From IMG/VR virus record IMGVR_UViG_3300012920_000321, positions 1 through 21,896 of that record: a DNA stretch of 21,896 bases; one strand, given 5' to 3'. Position numbers and translations under genes: made by a program. Source of the stretch: a virus. This document shows positions 1,480 to 21,896 of this stretch, piece after piece. The notes beneath the pieces were generated by a model. The model did no database searches and had not been told where the DNA came from. It saw nothing but the letters and a program-made list of their open reading frames with translations. Within the stretch, counting starts at the first letter, position 1. Every line of letters begins with the position of its first letter.

Positions 1480-1941
1480 ATGCCATACATAGGAAAAGCA
1501 CCAAACTTTGGAGTAAGAAGTAGATTTGTATATCAAGCTACAGCAGGACAAACATCCTTTAGTGGTTCAGATAGCAATTCATTAACGCTGTCATACAACG
1601 ACAGTCTATACATGGATGTGTATCAGAATGGTGTGTTGTTAAAAGCAGGAACAGACTACACAGCTACAACAGGCACAACAGTCGTACTCGTTGTAGGTGC
1701 AAGTTTAAATGACGTAGTAGAGATGATTGTGTATGATGTATTTAGTGTAAACAATACTTACACTAAAACTGAATCAGATACACGTTATCCTTTTAAAGGC
1801 AACAACAGTATTATAAGATTAAATGGTCAAACTATATCAGCAGACATTACAATAAATAGTGATGAGAATGGTGTAAGTGCAGGTCCTATAACACAGGACA
1901 ATGCCACAGTTACTGTTAATGGTTATTGGAGTATTGTATGA
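1480..1941 (+). CDS. tail-fibre tip protein with 70-residue beta module
   Basis: This is a 153-residue fibre-type protein. Residues 15-85 form a beta module (FVYQATAGQTSFSG, then VYQNGVLL, GTDYTATTG and ending MIVYDVF) that is homologous by eye to two consecutive modules in the large fibre at 15084. A YTKTESDTRY segment follows, of the type found before fibre trimerisation or tip regions. The C-terminus contains SAGPIT and ends VTVNGYWSIV, a common terminal signature of phage fibre proteins. The start lies 1 base after the preceding stop, with no strong Shine-Dalgarno site, so translational coupling is likely. The stop overlaps the next start as ATGA (1938-1941). Likely role: adhesive tip or adaptor at the end of a fibre. 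Confidence 0.75.
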   Translation: MPYIGKAPNFGVRSRFVYQATAGQTSFSGSDSNSLTLSYNDSLYMDVYQNGVLLKAGTDYTATTGTTVVLVVGASLNDVVEMIVYDVFSVNNTYTKTESDTRYPFKGNNSIIRLNGQTISADITINSDENGVSAGPITQDNATVTVNGYWSIV

Positions 1942-2375
1942 CAAGTCAGTTAAATGTAGATACAATCGTAGATAAAGCAGGTAGTGGTGGCACAAATGTT
2001 AAGGTAAACAATAGTTCTACTTATGTTGATGGTTCTAATAAAACCACTAACATGATTAATGCGATTACTAAAGGTTGGATTAATTTTGATTATTCTGCAA
2101 GTTCAACAAGAGATTCCTTAAATGTTTCTTCTACTACGGATAACGCACAAGGCGACCATACATTTACTCATACAAATAATTTTAACAATGAAGGTTATTG
2201 TACTAACTGTACAGGTGGTGGGCATGATTCAACAGATGGGCATTGGGATTATGTTTTAGGAAACTATAATCAAGCTGTAGCAAGTTCAAGAGTGAGAGGA
2301 TTAAGTGTTAATTATACTTCTGCTCTTTCAGATGTTAAAGGTGCAAGTATTTCTTGGAGAGGAGATTTAGCGTAA
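1938..2375 (+). CDS. tandem fibre-tip paralog 1
   Basis: The start is taken at ATG 1938 (MTSQLNVDTIVDKAGSG) rather than the in-frame ATG 12 bases earlier, because 1938 forms an ATGA overlap with the preceding stop and aligns with MASQLKVDTI and MASELRVNTL of the next two genes. The 145-residue protein has a central motif, KGWINFDY then DSLNVSSTTDNAQGD, shared with the two paralogs, and a Gly/His/Cys-containing segment (YCTNCTGGGH) specific to this copy. It ends RGDLA. The motif belongs to a widespread phage fibre class (K-x-W-[VI]-N-[FY] ... S-[LF]-N-V-S-S-x-T-D). Inferred role: distal receptor-contact protein. The CTNC pair could bind metal or form a disulfide; this is speculative. Confidence 0.75.
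   Translation: MTSQLNVDTIVDKAGSGGTNVKVNNSSTYVDGSNKTTNMINAITKGWINFDYSASSTRDSLNVSSTTDNAQGDHTFTHTNNFNNEGYCTNCTGGGHDSTDGHWDYVLGNYNQAVASSRVRGLSVNYTSALSDVKGASISWRGDLA
2361..2371 (+). promoter_or_regulatory. junction repeat copy 1: C-terminal codons doubling as RBS
   Basis: GGAGATTTAGC encodes the end of the Gly-Asp-Leu-Ala tail of the upstream protein. Its GGAG places a Shine-Dalgarno-like site 10 bases before the start at 2375. Identical 11-mers occur at 2813-2823 and 3256-3266. Confidence 0.7.
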
Positions 2376-2827
2376 TGGCAAGTCAACTTAAAGTAGATAC
2401 AATAACAGGTGTAACAACGGCAGGAAGCATTGCTGTTACAGGAGAGGGCAACAGTACAACAACAAACTTGCAAAGTGGCTTGGCAAAGGCGTGGGTTAAT
2501 TATAATCATCATACAGGCCCAACAGTAAGAAAAAGTTTTAACGTATCTTCTATGACAGATACTGCAACAGGTAAATTTCAAGCTAATTGGACAAATTCTT
2601 TTAATGATTATTTATACTGTGCAATTTCAAATCATGCAGATGACAACGAAGCATATGGAAACTATGGTGCTGGTAGTAGAATAAGTTGGTTTAATGGTCA
2701 CTCTATAGAAGAACAGTATCGTCAAAGACCACCATCTTTTGCTCAAGGTTCTACAACAGTAGATGCAAGTGGTGGTTTTACTGATATGAGAACAATTGAA
2801 GGTATGTTTTTAGGAGATTTAGCATAA
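2375..2827 (+). CDS. tandem fibre-tip paralog 2
   Basis: This is a 150-residue protein. The start is set at ATG 2375 (MASQLKVDTITG), which overlaps the preceding stop as TAATG; the longer frame from 2354 adds an MERRFSV leader with no homology to its siblings. The central segment reads KAWVNYNHH, then KSFNVSSMTDTATGK and a W-T-N-S-F-N strand, matching paralogs 1 and 3. The distal part (about residues 70-140) is unrelated in detail to the siblings, with GNYGAGSRISWFNGH. The protein ends LGDLA. Inferred function is a fibre-tip adhesin; conserved ends with a divergent distal region suggest receptor specialisation. Confidence 0.77.
   Translation: MASQLKVDTITGVTTAGSIAVTGEGNSTTTNLQSGLAKAWVNYNHHTGPTVRKSFNVSSMTDTATGKFQANWTNSFNDYLYCAISNHADDNEAYGNYGAGSRISWFNGHSIEEQYRQRPPSFAQGSTTVDASGGFTDMRTIEGMFLGDLA
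2813..2823 (+). promoter_or_regulatory. junction repeat copy 2: C-terminal codons doubling as RBS
   Basis: This is the second copy of GGAGATTTAGC. It encodes Gly-Asp-Leu-Ala at the end of paralog 2 and lies 10 bases (GGAG to ATG) before the start at 2827. Downstream bases TAATGGCAAGT are shared with copy 1, apart from the stop-codon context. Confidence 0.7.
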
Positions 2828-3270
2828 TGGCAAGTGAACTAAGAGTAAATACCTTAAAAGATGCAAGTGGCAATAACTCTGTAGCAACGAGTACAATTTC
2901 AAATGGTGTGTCTAAACATTACGTCAATTATGATGCACAAAATCAAGCAACAGATGATTCATTAAATCAGAGCAGTTTAACAGATGTTGCAACTGGAGAA
3001 TTTTACAGCACATTTACTAGTGCAATGTCTAGTGCGACTGCAAAAGCTCATTATGTATCTGCATTAAACAGTCAAGATGATGGTGCTAATGATACTTCTG
3101 GGACAGTTAGAGCAGGAGTGCATATGAACATTGGTATGTATGATAATCATAGAGTATTAAGTGCTTCAGAAGTTTCATTTTCAAGTGCTTATGGTGCTTA
3201 CACTAGTGGCAATGGAGCAGTTACTGATTTAAGCATGACTTGTTGCATGACATTAGGAGATTTAGCATGA
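2827..3270 (+). CDS. tandem fibre-tip paralog 3
   Basis: This 147-residue protein begins MASELRVNTLKDASGNNS, parallel to its two upstream neighbours. The central segment KHYVNYDAQ followed by DSLNQSSLTDVATGEF matches the paralog motif, with Gln replacing Val in the N-V-S-S position. The distal half is Ser/Ala/Asn-rich, and the protein ends MTLGDLA. The start overlaps the preceding stop (TAATG), and its own stop overlaps the next start (ATGA, 3267-3270). No enzyme motif is seen. Likely a virion surface protein of the same fibre system as paralogs 1 and 2. Confidence 0.77.
   Translation: MASELRVNTLKDASGNNSVATSTISNGVSKHYVNYDAQNQATDDSLNQSSLTDVATGEFYSTFTSAMSSATAKAHYVSALNSQDDGANDTSGTVRAGVHMNIGMYDNHRVLSASEVSFSSAYGAYTSGNGAVTDLSMTCCMTLGDLA
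3256..3266 (+). promoter_or_regulatory. junction repeat copy 3: C-terminal codons doubling as RBS
   Basis: This is the third copy of GGAGATTTAGC. It is followed directly by ATGA, so GGAG lies 7 bases from the start at 3267. It ends paralog 3 and primes translation of the larger fibre protein downstream. Confidence 0.7.
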
Positions 3271-4379
3271 GTAAAGCAGCAGAATTAGCAGCATTTATAG
3301 GTTCTCAAAATTCTTTAGCCAATCGTAATATGATTGGTAATGGTGCGTTTAATATACATCAAAGAAATACAACATTTACTAAAACTGGAAGTGGTGGTGG
3401 TAAAGTAATAGAAAGATGGCGAGAAGACCAATCTAATGTTGGTCAACTATCCGTAGAAGTCACAAGAGCAACAGACTCACCTGATACTTTTCCTGGCAGT
3501 TACTCTTTAAAATGGCAGGCTAAAACTCCTGAAGATAATTTGCATGCAAGTGAACAAACAAGTCTTATTACAAAAATAGAAGGTAAAGATTGTCAAAGAC
3601 TTCTTTATGGAACATCTAGTGCAAAAAATACAACATTGTCTTTTTGGGTTAAGTCAAGTATAGCAGGTACATTTTCCGTAAGAATATATCAAGAAGACGG
3701 AAATGATAATATTTCAAAGCCTTATACAATTAACTCTGCTGACACTTGGGAATACAAAACAATTAATTATCCAGGAAACACAGCTGCAGCTATAGCAGAT
3801 GATAATACAACAGGTCTACAATTAAGTTGGCATATATCTGTAGGTAGTAATAATGTTGGTGGTTCTAATGGTGATGTGTGGTCAGAGTATGCTGATAATA
3901 AATCTGCGTTTGGTCATGTAACAAATACACACATAACAACAGATGAAAGTACATTTCAACTTACTGGAGTGCAGTTTGAATTAGGAGATGTTGCTACACC
4001 TTTTGAGTTGTTGCCAATAGCAGATGATTTAGCTAGATGCCAAAGGTATTTTTACAAATTTTTATCAACTGATATTTATGGCCCGTTAGGAGCAACTGGT
4101 ATGCAGATAAATACTAACGCTTCATCAGGTACTATGTTTCAAGGTATGCACCCAGTAATGATGAGAGCAGCACCATCATTGGCAATAGGAGGAACTTGGA
4201 CTGGTGAGGTAGCTACTGGTGGTATAACTTTTTCATTAGCACAAAGTGTAAGAGTAAATAATTTATTTTGGCAAGTACAAGAAGCAATTCCTACTAGTGG
4301 TGCTAATAATGGTGATGCAGCTATGGTTTATTCTAACAATGATAACGATGCTTTTTTTTCTGGTGATGCAGAATTATAG
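3267..4379 (+). CDS. tail-fibre protein with carbohydrate-binding-like beta domain
   Basis: ATG 3267 (MSKAAELAAFIGSQNSLANR) is chosen because it sits in an ATGA overlap with a good GGAG; the frame upstream to 3240 lies wholly inside the previous gene. The product is 370 residues. Early residues NRNMIGNGAFNIHQRNTTF (about 19-37) are the classic opening of a phage fibre family with a jelly-roll, carbohydrate-binding-module-like domain. FWVKSSIAGTFSVRIYQ and TGVQFELGDVATPFELLP continue that fold (to about residue 250), and DLARCQRYFYKF marks the start of the C-terminal part. The last ~100 residues are a distinct Gly/Ala/Asn-rich tip. Inferred role: host-surface glycan binding. No catalytic acid pair of a glycosidase can be recognised. 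Confidence 0.82.
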   Translation: MSKAAELAAFIGSQNSLANRNMIGNGAFNIHQRNTTFTKTGSGGGKVIERWREDQSNVGQLSVEVTRATDSPDTFPGSYSLKWQAKTPEDNLHASEQTSLITKIEGKDCQRLLYGTSSAKNTTLSFWVKSSIAGTFSVRIYQEDGNDNISKPYTINSADTWEYKTINYPGNTAAAIADDNTTGLQLSWHISVGSNNVGGSNGDVWSEYADNKSAFGHVTNTHITTDESTFQLTGVQFELGDVATPFELLPIADDLARCQRYFYKFLSTDIYGPLGATGMQINTNASSGTMFQGMHPVMMRAAPSLAIGGTWTGEVATGGITFSLAQSVRVNNLFWQVQEAIPTSGANNGDAAMVYSNNDNDAFFSGDAEL

Positions 4380-4387
4380 GAGATTAT

Positions 4388-4573
4388 ATGGATATTAAAT
4401 CAGCAAAATACATAAAAGACACATTAGCAGATGATGGCAGTCATAGTAACATAAGAGTAGTTCTTAATGATAATACAGTTATGGCTGTTCCTATAAATAC
4501 AGAAAACTCAGACTATGTTGAATTAATGAAACAAGTTGATGCTGGTGAATTTACAATAGAAGAAGCTGATTGA
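4388..4573 (+). CDS. small conserved acidic protein
   Basis: This is a 61-residue protein with a beta-rich first half (IRVVLNDNTVMAVPINTEN) and a C-terminal helix ending AGEFTIEEAD. Its pattern, a short variable N-terminus, a 'D-N-T-V-x-x-V-P' strand and a terminal 'G-x-x-I-E-E-A-D', is seen in small proteins beside fibre genes in marine phages. Function is unknown. The start is preceded by TAGGAG directly after the fibre stop. It is the last gene before the late promoter of the neck operon. Confidence 0.7.
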   Translation: MDIKSAKYIKDTLADDGSHSNIRVVLNDNTVMAVPINTENSDYVELMKQVDAGEFTIEEAD

Positions 4574-4624: not shown

Positions 4625-5380
4625 ATGGCAAACCCAACTTCTCGAGCTACATTAATAGATTATTGTAAACGAAGACTCGGTGATCCTGTTATCGAGATAA
4701 ACGTTGATGTTGATCAACTTGAAGATCGTGTAGATGAAGCTCTACAATATTATCAAGAATATCATCATGATGCCACTATACGTACATATGTTTCTCATCT
4801 TGTAACTTCCACTGATGTAACAAATCAATATATTAGTATAAACGATAATATTATATTCGTTACTCGTATGTTTGCATTATCAAACACTATTAGTGGAAGT
4901 GGTAATTTCTTTGATGTAAAATATCAAATGATGTTAAATGACATGACAGACATTCAAAGATTTGCTGGTGACTTAGCTTACTTTGAACAAATTCAACAAT
5001 ATCTTTCTTTATTAGATATTAAATTAAATGGTCATCCTCAAACTGAATATTCTAGAAAACAAGATAGACTTTACATCTTTGGAGATTTTAAAGATCAAGA
5101 TATTAAAGAAGGTGATTACATAGTATATGAAGCATATCAAATTGTTGATCCAAGTACTCATACTCAGATATTTAATGATATGTGGTTAAAAGAATATACA
5201 ACAGCATTAATTAAACAACAATGGGGACAAAATTTAATTAAGTTTGAAGGAATGCAACTTCCTGGTGGAGTTATGTTAAACGGTAGGCAGATATATGATG
5301 ATGCATCTGGAGACATTGAAGCTCTTCGTGAACGTATTAGATTAGAACATGAAATGCCTCCTAACTTTTTTGTAGGATAG
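4625..5380 (+). CDS. gp13: neck protein gp13 (head completion)
   Basis: This 251-residue protein begins MANPTSRATLIDYCKRRLG, with a helical segment QLEDRVDEALQYYQEYHHD at about 30-48. Both are typical of T4 gp13 homologs; T4 gp13 is about 309 residues and marine homologs are shorter. With gp14 it forms the neck that seals the filled head and gives the docking site for the tail. GGAG at 4615-4618 precedes the start, and a perfect late promoter lies just upstream. The next gene, gp14, starts 1 base after the stop. Gene order 13-14-15-16-17 agrees with T4, which makes the assignment strong. Confidence 0.92.
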   Translation: MANPTSRATLIDYCKRRLGDPVIEINVDVDQLEDRVDEALQYYQEYHHDATIRTYVSHLVTSTDVTNQYISINDNIIFVTRMFALSNTISGSGNFFDVKYQMMLNDMTDIQRFAGDLAYFEQIQQYLSLLDIKLNGHPQTEYSRKQDRLYIFGDFKDQDIKEGDYIVYEAYQIVDPSTHTQIFNDMWLKEYTTALIKQQWGQNLIKFEGMQLPGGVMLNGRQIYDDASGDIEALRERIRLEHEMPPNFFVG

Positions 5381-13841: not shown

Positions 13842-15041
13842 ATGAAACAGATAATCAACGAAGCTCTTTTAGCCTTAGCTGTTAAAAATCTAAAAGAAGA
13901 AGTTGCCAAACTAAAAGATCAACCACCTAGACGAGGACGTCAAGGTCCTCAAGGAAATAAAGGTGAAAGAGGCCTTATTGGAGAACAAGGTCCTCAAGGT
14001 ATTCCAGGGAAAAGAGGAAAACAAGGTATACAAGGTATTCCTGGTAAACAGGGATTACAAGGACTTCGTGGTGAACAAGGTTTAATTGGTGAACAAGGAG
14101 AACAAGGACAGCAAGGTGAACAAGGTATTCAAGGTATTCAAGGTGAACGTGGATTACAAGGCTTACAAGGACTTCCTGGTGTTCAAGGATTACAAGGTGA
14201 AAAAGGAGACAAAGGAGATCGTGGTCCTCAAGGTATAAGAGGTTTAATTGGTGAACAAGGTGTTCAAGGTGAGCAAGGTATTCAAGGTATACCTGGCGTT
14301 ATTGGAGAACAAGGTGAGCGAGGTTCTCAAGGTGAAAAAGGAGATCGTGGTCCACAGGGTCTTAAAGGTGAAAAAGGAGATCGTGGAGAACAAGGTCCTC
14401 AAGGTATTCAAGGTGAAGTTGGTCCTAAAGGAGAAGATGGTACTAATGTTACATTAGAAGATGTTAAACCAATACTTGACAAATACAATAATGATTATAC
14501 TCGTTTTGTTAGTAATGTTAATAAATCATTAGCTTCTATAGGTGGTGGTGGTTTAGGTGAAGCAGATGTACTAAAATTAATTAATGATAATAGTAGTAGT
14601 GGTAGTGGTTCAAGTGATGTAGATTTATCTGCAGTAGATCAACATATTATTCCAAGTGAAACAGAAACATATGATTTAGGTACTTCAAGTAAAAAATGGA
14701 GAGATTTGTTTTTATCTGGATCATCAATAAATTTAGGTGATGCTAAAATTAGTATTTCATCTAATGGAGGAATACAATTAAAAGATGAACAAGGGACAAC
14801 TCCAAGTCTAACAACTTCAAATACAACTACTATACCTGGATCAAGTGGTAATTTTGATTTAAGAGCTTCAGAAGGAGATGGTGATAATGTAGCACTTGAA
14901 AATGATGCTGGAAATACTCTTGGATCTGTAAGTACTGATGCATTTGGTGCTAATCAAACAACAATATATGATTGCATGGAACCTTTTGGAACATTTAAAA
15001 CTCATGATTATGGTTCAGGGGAAACACATGTTGGAGCTTAA
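13842..15041 (+). CDS. collagen-like virion fibre protein
   Basis: This 399-residue protein has three parts. Residues 1-31 form a charged amphipathic helix ([20 protein letters not shown]), possibly a trimerising coiled coil. Residues 32-199 are 56 uninterrupted Gly-X-Y triplets, with Gln dominant in Y and salt-bridge patterns such as EKGDRG and NKGERG. Residues 200-399 are a beta-type tail with [20 protein letters not shown] and [16 protein letters not shown], a motif common in marine-phage fibres. The protein probably forms a rod-like triple helix on the virion surface, with the tail as tip. Phages lack proline hydroxylation, so stability would come from charge pairs and Gln. It is 1 base from gp20 and probably co-transcribed with it. 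Confidence 0.85.
13935..14438 (+). repeat. Gly-X-Y coding repeat (56 triplets)
   Basis: A 504-base tract of 9-base-periodic codons encodes residues 32-199 of the collagen-like protein. Units such as CAAGGTATTCAAGGT recur, making the tract prone to slippage or recombination that changes rod length in whole triplets. Confidence 0.9.
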
Positions 15042-18861: not shown

Positions 18862-19905
18862 ATGAAATATTCTTCAATTAAAAAAACAATATCCGAAACG
18901 GTTGGTAAGATAACTGGTACTAACGATGCACCACTTTTCGTGACTGAACCTACGGCATTAACACCTGCACCATCAGCTAATGCTGATTCAAGTGTTATGA
19001 CAGTAAAAGCCTTAGATCCAGATGGGTTTCCTATTGAATATGGAGTAACTTATTTTGATTCAGCTGCTAAAGCTGTTTATTCAAATGACTCAGCGAGTTT
19101 ACCTCCCGCTTTAGCTTCTCCTACTATTATAAGAGATAGTAGTGATGGCAGTGCTGAATTTAAATTTATTTCAAGAACTTCTGATTCAGATGGATCTGGT
19201 AATGCTACTGACAATGAATTAAAAGTAAGGTATCAGGCCACTGACGGCATTAGAACCGGTGTGACTGTAAATACATTTAAGAATTCTTTTGGTTATAACT
19301 TATGGAGATACTATGTACCATCTGGTTATAGTTGGGGAACTTCTTATTTTCATATGGATACATCAAATTCTAGTAAGATAGGTTGGTATAGTAGTACTTC
19401 TAGGAGTTCTTCTACTGATATATTGAGAGGAAATACGTCTTTAACTTCAACTGCACTGACATATAAAAGTAGTGGTGTAGCTGCACAAGGTACTTATGGC
19501 TTTTGGAGAGGAGGAGCTGGTAGAGATTTCTTTTCAGATAATACTGGTGGATTTAGCATTACTAACAATGGAGACTTTTTTAAATCTAATGGCACATTCT
19601 ACTTATATGCAACAACTGGTACTAGTGGTACTAGTAATTTAGTAGCTGATAGAGATATGTTGTACTTTTGGTTTGCTGATCCTCTTGCAGCATCTGATCT
19701 AGTTGGTTCAGTTGTTGCATGGGAAACTTACAGTAATGATAGATCCCCTAATAGACTATTAGTACAATATTATGCGGGTTCATTAACAGCAACATATGAT
19801 GCTGCTAATTGGGTTACAATGTGTACACTTACTGGTAATGCTCATGAAAATAGATACCACGGACCACTAGCAATAGGTGGCAGTCATGCTTCGGTGAGTC
19901 AATAA
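18862..19905 (+). CDS. virion structural protein with cadherin/Ig-like domain
   Basis: This is a 347-residue protein. Residues about 20-145 resemble a cadherin- or Ig-like beta domain: NDAPLFVTEP opening, KALDPDGFPIEYGV, DSDGSGNATDNELKVRYQ and ATDGIRTGV. Asp-rich loops could bind Ca2+. Residues about 146-347 are an aromatic- and Ser-rich beta domain (NLWRYYVPSGYSWGTSYF, FWRGGAGRDFFSDN, YLYATTGTSG) that I do not recognise. The start lies 1 base after the fibre stop, and its own stop overlaps the next start (TAATG). Likely a surface or fibre-associated adhesin co-translated with both neighbours. It has no signal peptide or membrane segment. Confidence 0.7.
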   Translation: MKYSSIKKTISETVGKITGTNDAPLFVTEPTALTPAPSANADSSVMTVKALDPDGFPIEYGVTYFDSAAKAVYSNDSASLPPALASPTIIRDSSDGSAEFKFISRTSDSDGSGNATDNELKVRYQATDGIRTGVTVNTFKNSFGYNLWRYYVPSGYSWGTSYFHMDTSNSSKIGWYSSTSRSSSTDILRGNTSLTSTALTYKSSGVAAQGTYGFWRGGAGRDFFSDNTGGFSITNNGDFFKSNGTFYLYATTGTSGTSNLVADRDMLYFWFADPLAASDLVGSVVAWETYSNDRSPNRLLVQYYAGSLTATYDAANWVTMCTLTGNAHENRYHGPLAIGGSHASVSQ

Positions 19906-21896
19906 TGGCTGAAACAAGAGCAAGAGATTTAGCAAAGAGTTTAGGGCAGGCTGTAAAAACAAATAACATTGCTTCTGATGGTTCACTAGCAGTATTAGGA
20001 GTGACGGCGTATGATAGCTCTGGACTACTTCCTTTAAGTTATGATTCAAATAATGCAGGGTCATTAGGATTTGCAAAAGATTCGGACAGACTTTATGTGC
20101 ATACTGGACAAGGCTGGTTTAATATTGCTATAATTAATACTACACCGATATTCACATCAAGTCCAAGTGCAAGTTATGCACTAGCAAATGATGCTACTGC
20201 TTACAATAACGGAACTGCGACAACTATCACATTGGCGGCAAGAGACTCAGAAGGATTTCCACTAACCTGGTCTTATTCAGCAAATTCTGCATTCAATAAT
20301 ATAGCTTACGTTTCCAATGATTCGTCTGTATATACTATCATACCTAAGTCACAGGATTCAGTTGGAGAAGCTGCACCTTCGGCAGGAACTTTAACTTTCA
20401 CTACATCAGATGGTATTAATATTGCCTCAGCTGCATCTACTTTCACTCTGACTTTTGATGCAACGATAGCAGGATCTGAAGGTACTACATTCTTATCAAA
20501 GGCTATAGGTACAGGAGGTGATAATAGTTCTTTTTCTGATAAGTCTACTACTGGAACAACACACACGATAACAGCTGTGGGTAATACAGATCAAGGTACA
20601 TTTAGTCCTTATTCTCCTGCAAGATATTCGTGGTTTTTTGATGGAACTGATGATGCAGTTCGAACTGATACAAATGGACCTACACTAGGTACTAGTGATT
20701 TAACAGTTGAATTTTGGTTTCAAAATGAATACGATTTTGGTGATAACACATTTAGATCTATAGTTTCTGATAATCTTTATGGGAGTGCTGGAGGTTGGAC
20801 CATTGGTCAATTTGATAATGAAATTAGGTTAGCTGTTGCTGGATCCACAATCCTAAATGCTATTTATGCGCCATGGATTAGTACTCATACTGGATGGAAT
20901 CATGTAGCTTGGGTAAGAAATTCAGGTACTAGTAAAATATACATCAATGGTCATGAATCTGGATCTGTATCTGATACTAATAACTATACGAATAATCGAA
21001 TAATAATTGGAGCCAGTAACTTTGGATCTAATTATCCTAATTATGACTTTAAAGGATGGATACATGATCTTAGAATAGTAGTAGGAACTCCTGTCTATAC
21101 TGGGAACTTCACTCCTCCTAATGGACCTTTAACTACTACAGGAGGTTTATACCCTTCAACTACAAATGTTAATACATCAATAACTGCTAGTCATACGAAA
21201 TACCAAGCATGTAACCTTCCGTATATTAGTCAAGCCAAGGGTTCAACTGGAGATGCTATACAAACTTCTAATGGTACAGTAGTAGCAGATGCATTCAGTC
21301 CTTATAATGTTCAAGAAGCATACTCTTCTTCAACACACGGTGGGTCTGCATACATGGCGGGACCCGGATATGGTTTAACAGTTCCTACTAGTGCTGATTT
21401 TGATATGGATACTGGAGACTATACCATAGAAATGTGGGTGTATCCTACTACTGCAGGTCAAGAAGTATTGCTTGATCCAAGATCTTCTGGTACTCAGAAA
21501 GTTCCAACTATTTGGTGGGACGGTCAAAACTCGCGTTTTTATGCATATATAAATGGTAATTATGTAAGAACTTCTTCTACTGGAATACACAAGAAACAAC
21601 AATGGTATCATGTTGCTTTAACTAGAAATTCTGGTAAGACTATATTATTTGTAAACGGTAATCGACATGCACCTATTTTCACTGATTCGCTTGATTATGT
21701 TCAAGGAAGCACAGTACGTATTGGAAAACATTGGAGCGATACACAGTATGATTTTGAAGGATATATTTCTGACTTTAGGTGGGTTAAAGGAGATTCTAGA
21801 TATCCTTTTTTACCAGTAGCAGAAACTATTACAACAACGACTTCTTATCAAAATGGAATTACAGTAGATGCAGGAGACGTTGAACTCATAATGGCA
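19905..21896 (+). CDS. LamG-domain virion adhesin (3' end beyond window)
   Basis: Open from ATG 19905 (TAATG overlap with the previous stop) for 664 codons to the window edge with no stop, so the gene is partial. It begins MAETRARDLAKSLGQAVKTN with a short attachment-type domain containing RLYVHTGQGWFNIA (about 63-76). A cadherin/Ig-like domain (about 80-190, with ARDSEGFPLTWSYS) resembles that of the previous protein. Two LamG/concanavalin-A-like domains follow: about 233-405 (WFFDGTDDAV, LTVEFWFQNEY, WNHVAWVRNSGTSKIYINGH) and about 464-645 (YTIEMWVYPTT, WYHVALTRNSGKTILFVNGN). Such domains bind glycans or proteins. Inferred role: host or particle adhesion by the virion. Confidence 0.85.
   Translation, partial: MAETRARDLAKSLGQAVKTNNIASDGSLAVLGVTAYDSSGLLPLSYDSNNAGSLGFAKDSDRLYVHTGQGWFNIAIINTTPIFTSSPSASYALANDATAYNNGTATTITLAARDSEGFPLTWSYSANSAFNNIAYVSNDSSVYTIIPKSQDSVGEAAPSAGTLTFTTSDGINIASAASTFTLTFDATIAGSEGTTFLSKAIGTGGDNSSFSDKSTTGTTHTITAVGNTDQGTFSPYSPARYSWFFDGTDDAVRTDTNGPTLGTSDLTVEFWFQNEYDFGDNTFRSIVSDNLYGSAGGWTIGQFDNEIRLAVAGSTILNAIYAPWISTHTGWNHVAWVRNSGTSKIYINGHESGSVSDTNNYTNNRIIIGASNFGSNYPNYDFKGWIHDLRIVVGTPVYTGNFTPPNGPLTTTGGLYPSTTNVNTSITASHTKYQACNLPYISQAKGSTGDAIQTSNGTVVADAFSPYNVQEAYSSSTHGGSAYMAGPGYGLTVPTSADFDMDTGDYTIEMWVYPTTAGQEVLLDPRSSGTQKVPTIWWDGQNSRFYAYINGNYVRTSSTGIHKKQQWYHVALTRNSGKTILFVNGNRHAPIFTDSLDYVQGSTVRIGKHWSDTQYDFEGYISDFRWVKGDSRYPFLPVAETITTTTSYQNGITVDAGDVELIMA

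Follow-up and report, generated by a model that had tools for sequence, protein, structure and literature searches.

The locus examined here raises the question of why a T4-like phage should carry, directly before its head-tail adaptor gene, three consecutive small fibre genes that share their ends and differ in between. The stretch of DNA analysed, hereafter the window, is a 21.9-kb fragment (21,896 nucleotides) of an uncultivated virus. It is a T4-like myovirus, encoding head-tail adaptor, head closure, sheath stabiliser, terminase, sheath, tube and portal proteins, and its terminase shares 73% identity with the enzyme of phage C48C1, which is placed in the Kyanoviridae. A megablast search of the whole window against phage records gave no match, and PADLOC returned no hit. 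The answer that we consider likely is that the three genes represent three fixed slots, each combining an address tag with a freely exchanged beta-sandwich head, and that their coupled translation would supply each virion with three different heads.

The three reading frames are intact (1938-2375, 2375-2827 and 2827-3270, encoding 145, 150 and 147 amino acids, respectively) and lie on one strand, the plus strand, as do all features given below. Each has its own start; genes 1, 2 and 3 overlap by one base (TAATG), and the downstream fibre gene overlaps by four (ATGA). An invertible fibre segment of the Mu G type would involve an invertase and inverted repeats, with one copy expressed at a time. 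The first-pass annotation proposed that they are paralogues with divergent distal regions, and the alignments agree with this proposal. Pairwise local scores of the three proteins (152, 108 and 139) were reached by none of 500 shuffles, and the scores obtained without the first 12 and last 6 residues (125, 88 and 107) by none of 1000, so that similarity is significant outside the ends as well, the comparison that had been set beforehand as the test. For the distal part following TDxAxG, with the end excluded, between-copy similarity was not significant, the score being reached by 64, 878 and 145 of 1000 shuffles. All three proteins match phrog_11355, 'tail fiber protein' (E-values of 1.3e-7, 6.9e-14 and 4.2e-7), a name that is silent on slots, tags and coupling; the Pfam search gave no convincing family for any of the three, and tblastn of gene 1 against phage records gave no match.

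Relatives were gathered by three scans of viral contigs together with a profile of the N-terminal region, resulting in 592 copies in 151 loci and 433 distinct complete proteins. Some of these loci overlap or repeat, L001-L003 are the window itself, and the set is enriched for such members, since the search motifs were taken from the tags of the window itself and from K-x-W. Gene order in the relatives is constant: D153, slots 1, 2 and 3, a further gene, A123, an optional gene, D153 again, slots 1, 2 and 3, a fibre gene (H) and I61. The same two-cassette layout, with the D-slot 1-slot 2-slot 3 order occurring twice and H after the second, is found in the cultured SAR116 podovirus HMO-2011, a Puniceispirillum phage. 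The proposal of a duplicated family holds insofar as the genes are paralogues, but there is no simple local duplication; they form a standard three-position cassette that usually occurs twice per contig, its positions being ancient and fixed and not the product of a recent duplication. HMO-2011-type genes are present in 40 loci and T4-like genes in the window and a few more (102 of the 151 loci are without an assigned phage type). Among 28 other T4-like loci that extend at least 2.7 kb upstream of the adaptor gene, the window and the window-derived L002 being left out, only 5 carry the family. As the same layout is shared by the podovirus HMO-2011 and the T4-like window, the module has moved between phage families.

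Most of this layout can be followed in the window. Positions 1-98 encode the C-terminal remnant, KPKMVICRLHQLPEHRQWRNAWQIREDIELAA and a stop, of the gene that in relatives comes after the upstream triplet, as judged from the frame translation against the C-terminus of HMO-2011 gene 36; since the window starts inside this gene, a second triplet probably lies just beyond the window edge. A123 (110-481), located by its conserved position between the two cassettes, matches phrog_20196 (E-value of 1.2e-33) and is weakly like tail fibre assembly proteins (phrog_4912 'tail fiber assembly', 0.003). The optional position between A123 and D153 (492-1478) is occupied here by the fibre-like B219 (492-1151; phrog_18345 tail fiber protein, 0.0013) and C104; in other contigs and in HMO-2011 (gene 34) it is occupied by a tagged head, often with a 'MALT...' tag, and it may represent a seventh socket. 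D153 (1480-1941), the likely shaft or anchor protein opening each cassette, is 82% identical over its full length to HMO-2011 gene 33. Downstream of the three slots are H370 (3267-4379), a tail fibre C-terminal-type protein (phrog_4492 tail fiber protein, 1.1e-54) whose position and similar N-terminus make it the counterpart of HMO-2011 gene 28; I61 (4388-4573), a small acidic protein with which the downstream cassette ends in relatives, as indicated by conserved gene order and the HMO-2011 layout; and the head-tail adaptor of the T4-like neck region (4625-5380; phrog_211, 3.2e-40), the first conserved gene past the fibre region. In some contigs a fourth family gene follows slot 3 (L120:6820-end, L119:2834, L167:2760 and L168:5589), in cases with an MSKASDLARL tag resembling the start of H370, which suggests that the H position can also hold a head.

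For the internal organisation of the proteins, each was cut at the conserved Lys of K-x-[WFY], present in 427 of the 433 copies, which yields tags of 25-50 residues and heads of roughly 100. In the window, the gene 1 tag, the putative slot-1 address (1938-2069, 44 amino acids beginning MTSQLNVDTIVDKAG), is followed by a head of 101 amino acids running from K-G-W to GDLA, plus the stop (2070-2375). The corresponding slot-2 parts are a tag of 37 amino acids beginning MASQLKVDTITGV (2375-2485) and a head of 113 plus stop (2486-2827), and those of slot 3 are a tag of 29 amino acids beginning MASELRVNTLKDAS (2827-2913) and a head of 118 plus stop (2914-3270). Among 79 complete, distinct triplets from marine viral contigs, the slot was predicted in cross-validation with an accuracy of 98% from the tag and 49% from the head, the latter being 31% (chance 33%) with vertical relatives masked. 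For the six-way address of two cassettes by three slots, leave-one-out accuracy was 0.93 for the tag and, with vertical relatives masked, 0.21 for the head (chance 0.24). Pairs with identical tags had heads less than 40% identical in 129 of 137 cases, which is the level of random pairs, and these heads differ wholesale rather than at scattered adenines, where a target of a diversity-generating retroelement would vary; a reverse transcriptase was not recognised among the scanned genes of the window, itself a fragment. The divergence boundary had previously been placed after the central motif, and this placement has to be revised, as the natural boundary is found earlier, at K-x-[WY] (residues 45, 38 and 30); a cut after the central motif gave a blurred picture, whereas the K-x-W cut gave a clear contrast together with the DNA seams described below. 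As to whether the three genes are fixed one-to-one with invariable distal regions, the genes are indeed fixed in most relatives, with a modal copy number of three and 98% slot identity, but their distal regions are extremely variable. The unit of interchange appears to be the whole head, from K-x-W to GDLA, moving between positions, cassettes and phages.

Exchange of the distal region among related phages, for which the first-pass annotation had recommended a search, is a strong pattern. Heads at least 75% identical were found on tags less than 50% identical in 22 independent groups, including tags of other positions. Across such swapped heads, DNA identity is about 0.25-0.6 before the Lys codon, about 0.88 from it onward and 0.83-0.89 across GDLA, and past the stop codon it is 0.45 and falls to 0.3. 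For instance, loci L183 and L222 are 99% identical in the DNA of the head, 54% in the tag and 53% in the next gene, and HMO-2011 gene 32 has head DNA 81% identical to a slot-2 head and tag DNA 50% identical. Ordinary vertical divergence, in which three old paralogues with fast-evolving distal loops undergo no exchange between slots, would fit the distal regions of the window genes not being significantly similar; it is nevertheless very improbable in view of the near-identical heads on unrelated tags, the identical tags with unrelated heads, the sharp DNA steps at both ends and the slot-free heads, and the swapped pairs already contradict it. Triplet pairs with close heads in common share one head in 24 cases, two in 5 and three in 2, and the heads seem to be exchanged mostly singly.

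Most of the exchange evidence comes from metagenome contigs, HMO-2011 being a cultured isolate, and many contigs are short, some of them ending inside heads (e.g. L220 and L221). Wrong contig joins at the similar tag and GDLA ends might consequently have produced false tag and head combinations, an explanation to which we attach hardly any weight. The identical bases common to both sides at the seams number 0-7, which would not suffice for k-mer misjoins; identity among many of the swapped heads is 74-95%, and these are hence different molecules; tags follow the slot order with 98% consistency; and the cultured HMO-2011 genome has the same pattern. Seams without shared sequence, along with the agreement of the isolate, thus argue against assembly chimeras. 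Within the window, the gene 2 head has 87% identity to a slot-2 head of an upstream cassette, whose tag is 81% identical, and 53% identity to heads in slot 1 on tags 35% identical, the latter being the closest match of a window head on a clearly different tag. For gene 1, an upstream-cassette slot-1 protein matches the head at 76% and the tag at 66%, and the gene 3 head, with a best relative at 41%, is nearly alone so far.

The GDLA end described previously is present in all three proteins, but it is not simply a protein signature, as the ribosome-binding site for the following gene is embedded in its codons. In the window these codons are GGA GAT TTA GC(A/G), followed by TAATG or ATGA, and GGAGA is located 9, 9 and 6 bases 5' of the next start: at 2361-2365 in the Gly-Asp codons of gene 1, before the gene 2 ATG (TAATG overlap), at 2813-2817 inside the gene 2 end, before gene 3, and at 3256-3260 inside the gene 3 end, before H370 (ATGA overlap). 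The Gly codon of GDLA is GGA or GGG in 293 of 296 ends from distinct internal runs, compared with 35% elsewhere in the same genes, and the overlap with the next ATG (TAATG or ATGA) is present in 425 of the 433 copies. Related heads in unrelated phages (Rhizobium, Octadecabacter, Vibrio and Manatee Spring) are followed by a spacer before the next gene and end in VAIFG, VMVLG, VVFSN or TAIFY, with no GDLA. Given the GGA/GGG codon bias, the overlapping genes and the uncoupled heads without GDLA, the Gly-Asp part is best read, at the level of sequence, as a Shine-Dalgarno element inside the coding end, and for this part GDLA clearly illustrates how a translation signal for the following gene can account for conservation at the C-terminus of a protein. 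A purely protein-level signature was considered and found insufficient on account of the bias to GGA and the lack of GDLA in uncoupled heads. The Shine-Dalgarno element alone does not explain why Leu-Ala is constant and why CTC is over-used for Leu at GDLA (98 of 296, this codon being rare elsewhere in these genes, with only 66 uses), and one possibility is that these features reflect a shared DNA seam for recombination. With the Shine-Dalgarno element of each following gene lying in this end, translation of the overlapping genes is probably coupled, and all three products are therefore likely made together. Of the 'alternative or combined' fibre tips suggested previously, combined tips are favoured by this coupling and by the separate tags, and alternative tips are disfavoured. 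The same device is seen upstream of gene 1, where GGAG (1928-1931) lies in the Trp-Ser codons of the conserved D153 end (...NGYWSIV, 1924-1941), 6 nucleotides before the overlapping ATG (ATGA).

The slots can also hold unrelated fibre modules, namely C1q (PF00386, 4e-10) or Peptidase_S74 proteins. The upstream slot 2 is often represented by fibre proteins of 270-380 amino acids with tags like MSEVKTNKISS (L181:4256-5128, L125:3252-4385 and L154:829-1797), some with a terminal Peptidase_S74 chaperone and others, such as that of L154, without one. HMO-2011 has its own Phage_tail_APC chaperone gene after each non-standard slot-2 protein (L225:7362-7607 and L225:4054-4374), as if unusual heads travel with a chaperone.

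The modal number of exactly three slots (79 of 131 distinct internal runs), the coupled translation and the strict slot identity of the tags would be expected of one heterotrimeric tip assembled, in the manner of complement C1q with its A, B and C chains, from one chain per slot, the tags setting chain order and the coupling giving a 1:1:1 ratio. This arrangement is considered unlikely, since heads change singly (only one in common in 24 of 31 sharing pairs), since heads within one triplet are no more alike than heads across triplets (31.9 versus 31.6%), and since a slot may hold a C1q or S74-chaperoned module that is unlike the other two and would not co-fold with them. For these same reasons, each slot product is more probably a homotrimer.

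Predicted structures are consistent with a fibre-tip role of the heads. The AlphaFold2 models of genes 2 and 3 (mean pLDDT of 73.6 and 81.4) are beta-sandwiches; the heads of the two are unlike in sequence, yet in both models the first strand (residues 37-44 and 29-36, respectively) begins at the seam between tag and head, and the distal loops have low pLDDT (50-60). The top hits of both models are phage tailspike or fibre domains: the phiAB6 tailspike (Z-scores of 8.6 for gene 2 and 6.9 for gene 3), the receptor-binding domain of the Pam1 tailspike (6.3 and 6.4, rmsd of 2.0-2.1 over 68-69 residues), AP22 gp53 (5.5 and 5.6) and, for gene 3, R-pyocin fibres (about 5). These matches are middling (Foldseek E-values above 0.001, Z-scores below 9), and the list is not exclusively of phage, a shrimp-virus envelope protein falling in the same range (6.1-6.6); they are quoted because two models with unlike heads agree. 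A C-terminal beta-sandwich has been described in the phiAB6 tailspike (PMC5314372), and from the entry numbering we infer that this is the matching region. The models thus suggest a resemblance to known distal phage fibre domains, although likeness of fold is no proof of binding.

In T4, the genes for gp12 and fibritin are located just before the neck genes. The module in the window has the same place, and its products might accordingly be decoration, assembly or collar proteins on the virion rather than receptor-binding tips. We regard such a role as improbable: the predicted fold resembles that of distal fibre domains, the head terminates fibre-annotated proteins in unrelated phages, C1q and S74 modules replace it in the slots, and a variable host-recognition region is found at the same place in pelagimyophages (PMC7029224).

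The reading preferred here is that of fixed slots with exchangeable heads. The N-terminal tag (29-44 residues in the window) most likely anchors each protein at a dedicated site of the fibre, which D153 or a neighbour might provide, and the predicted beta-sandwich head of about 100 residues most likely binds the host surface, as its fold, its position and its replacement by C1q or S74 modules suggest. Heads would be swapped as single units, whether from slot to slot, from one cassette of a genome to the other or from phage to phage, and the exchange seams would lie at the stop codon and where tag and head meet. These seams would fall where all family members must match, that is at Lys-x-Trp at the start of the head and at the Gly-Asp-Leu-Ala codons with their Shine-Dalgarno element. 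Translational coupling would provide the three tips in similar amounts, and three different heads would be carried at once by each virion. As far as sequence comparison can indicate, the tag/head set looks like a plug-in system for changing the bacterial surface that is gripped.

Among known systems, the closest parallel is with the tailspikes TSP1-TSP4 of Ackermannviridae (CBA120, Kuttervirus), which form a branched complex on the baseplate and have position-specific N-termini and diverse C-terminal binding modules, some of them swapped between positions (PMC8432352, PMC11414711). As in that system, several genes for receptor binding, a role presumed in the window family, are found in one cluster with position-specific N-termini (the tag predicting the slot in 98%) and C-terminal modules that appear exchangeable between positions. 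However, large beta-helix spikes are carried in Ackermannviridae by XD docking domains similar to T4 gp10, whereas the window family has short tags of 25-45 residues and predicted sandwich heads of about 100, overlapping genes, a ribosome-binding site in the coding end and heads without position preference. Its tags match no Pfam family and seem too short for the T4 gp10-related XD1-3 or TD1-2 docking domains. HMO-2011 shares the gene order described above, but is a podovirus, and its slots 2 are occupied by C1q or other heads accompanied by chaperone genes. Pelagimyophages have a hypervariable host recognition cluster with fibre and C1q genes upstream of gp14 (PMC7029224), and metaviromic islands are likewise variable and contain fibre and C1q genes (PMC3909814). 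Both resemble the module in genome position, hypervariability and gene content, but have been described as variable islands and not as ordered slots with interchangeable heads. A fibre host-recognition module moves between distantly related Alteromonas phages of different morphology (PMC10579305), but it consists of one fibre and a chaperone instead of several small tips in separate slots. Position-specific N-termini with swapped C-terminal modules and a hypervariable fibre region at this place are therefore already known from Ackermannviridae and pelagimyophages, respectively. In the open-licence papers searched, no published description of the slot, tag and head design was found, including for the HMO-2011-type module; this applies to the small tag/head design, the apparently slot-indifferent heads, the putative ribosome-binding site in the shared end and the occurrence of the same set in a podovirus and a T4-like myovirus.

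HMO-2011-type phages are reportedly among the most abundant viruses in the ocean (PMC9038755). A broader scenario, which we put forward only tentatively and think rather less than evenly probable, is that abundant marine phages of different families use a universal plug-in receptor system, in which up to six or seven address-tagged sockets per genome would accept any head from a large shared pool, heads would be inserted singly by recombination at the head border and the GDLA ribosome-binding sequence, and host range would equal the combination of heads. If their host contact indeed depends on interchangeable heads seated in fixed sockets, the sequence of a phage would in principle disclose its host range as a list of heads, rates of head exchange would be measurable from reads, and a concrete mechanism would be available for the metaviromic islands at this place. 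The heads would also constitute a set of small, single-domain, naturally interchangeable candidate binding proteins.

Other genes of possible relevance to attachment were noted elsewhere in the window. A protein of 399 amino acids with long collagen-like G-x-y repeats (PF01391) is encoded at 13842-15041 and is followed by a 1258-amino-acid protein with an Mtd_N domain. An open reading frame at 18862-19905, with no PHROG match, precedes one at 19905-21896 that is open at the contig end and, with two apparent lectin/LamG-like repeats, encodes a candidate adhesin.
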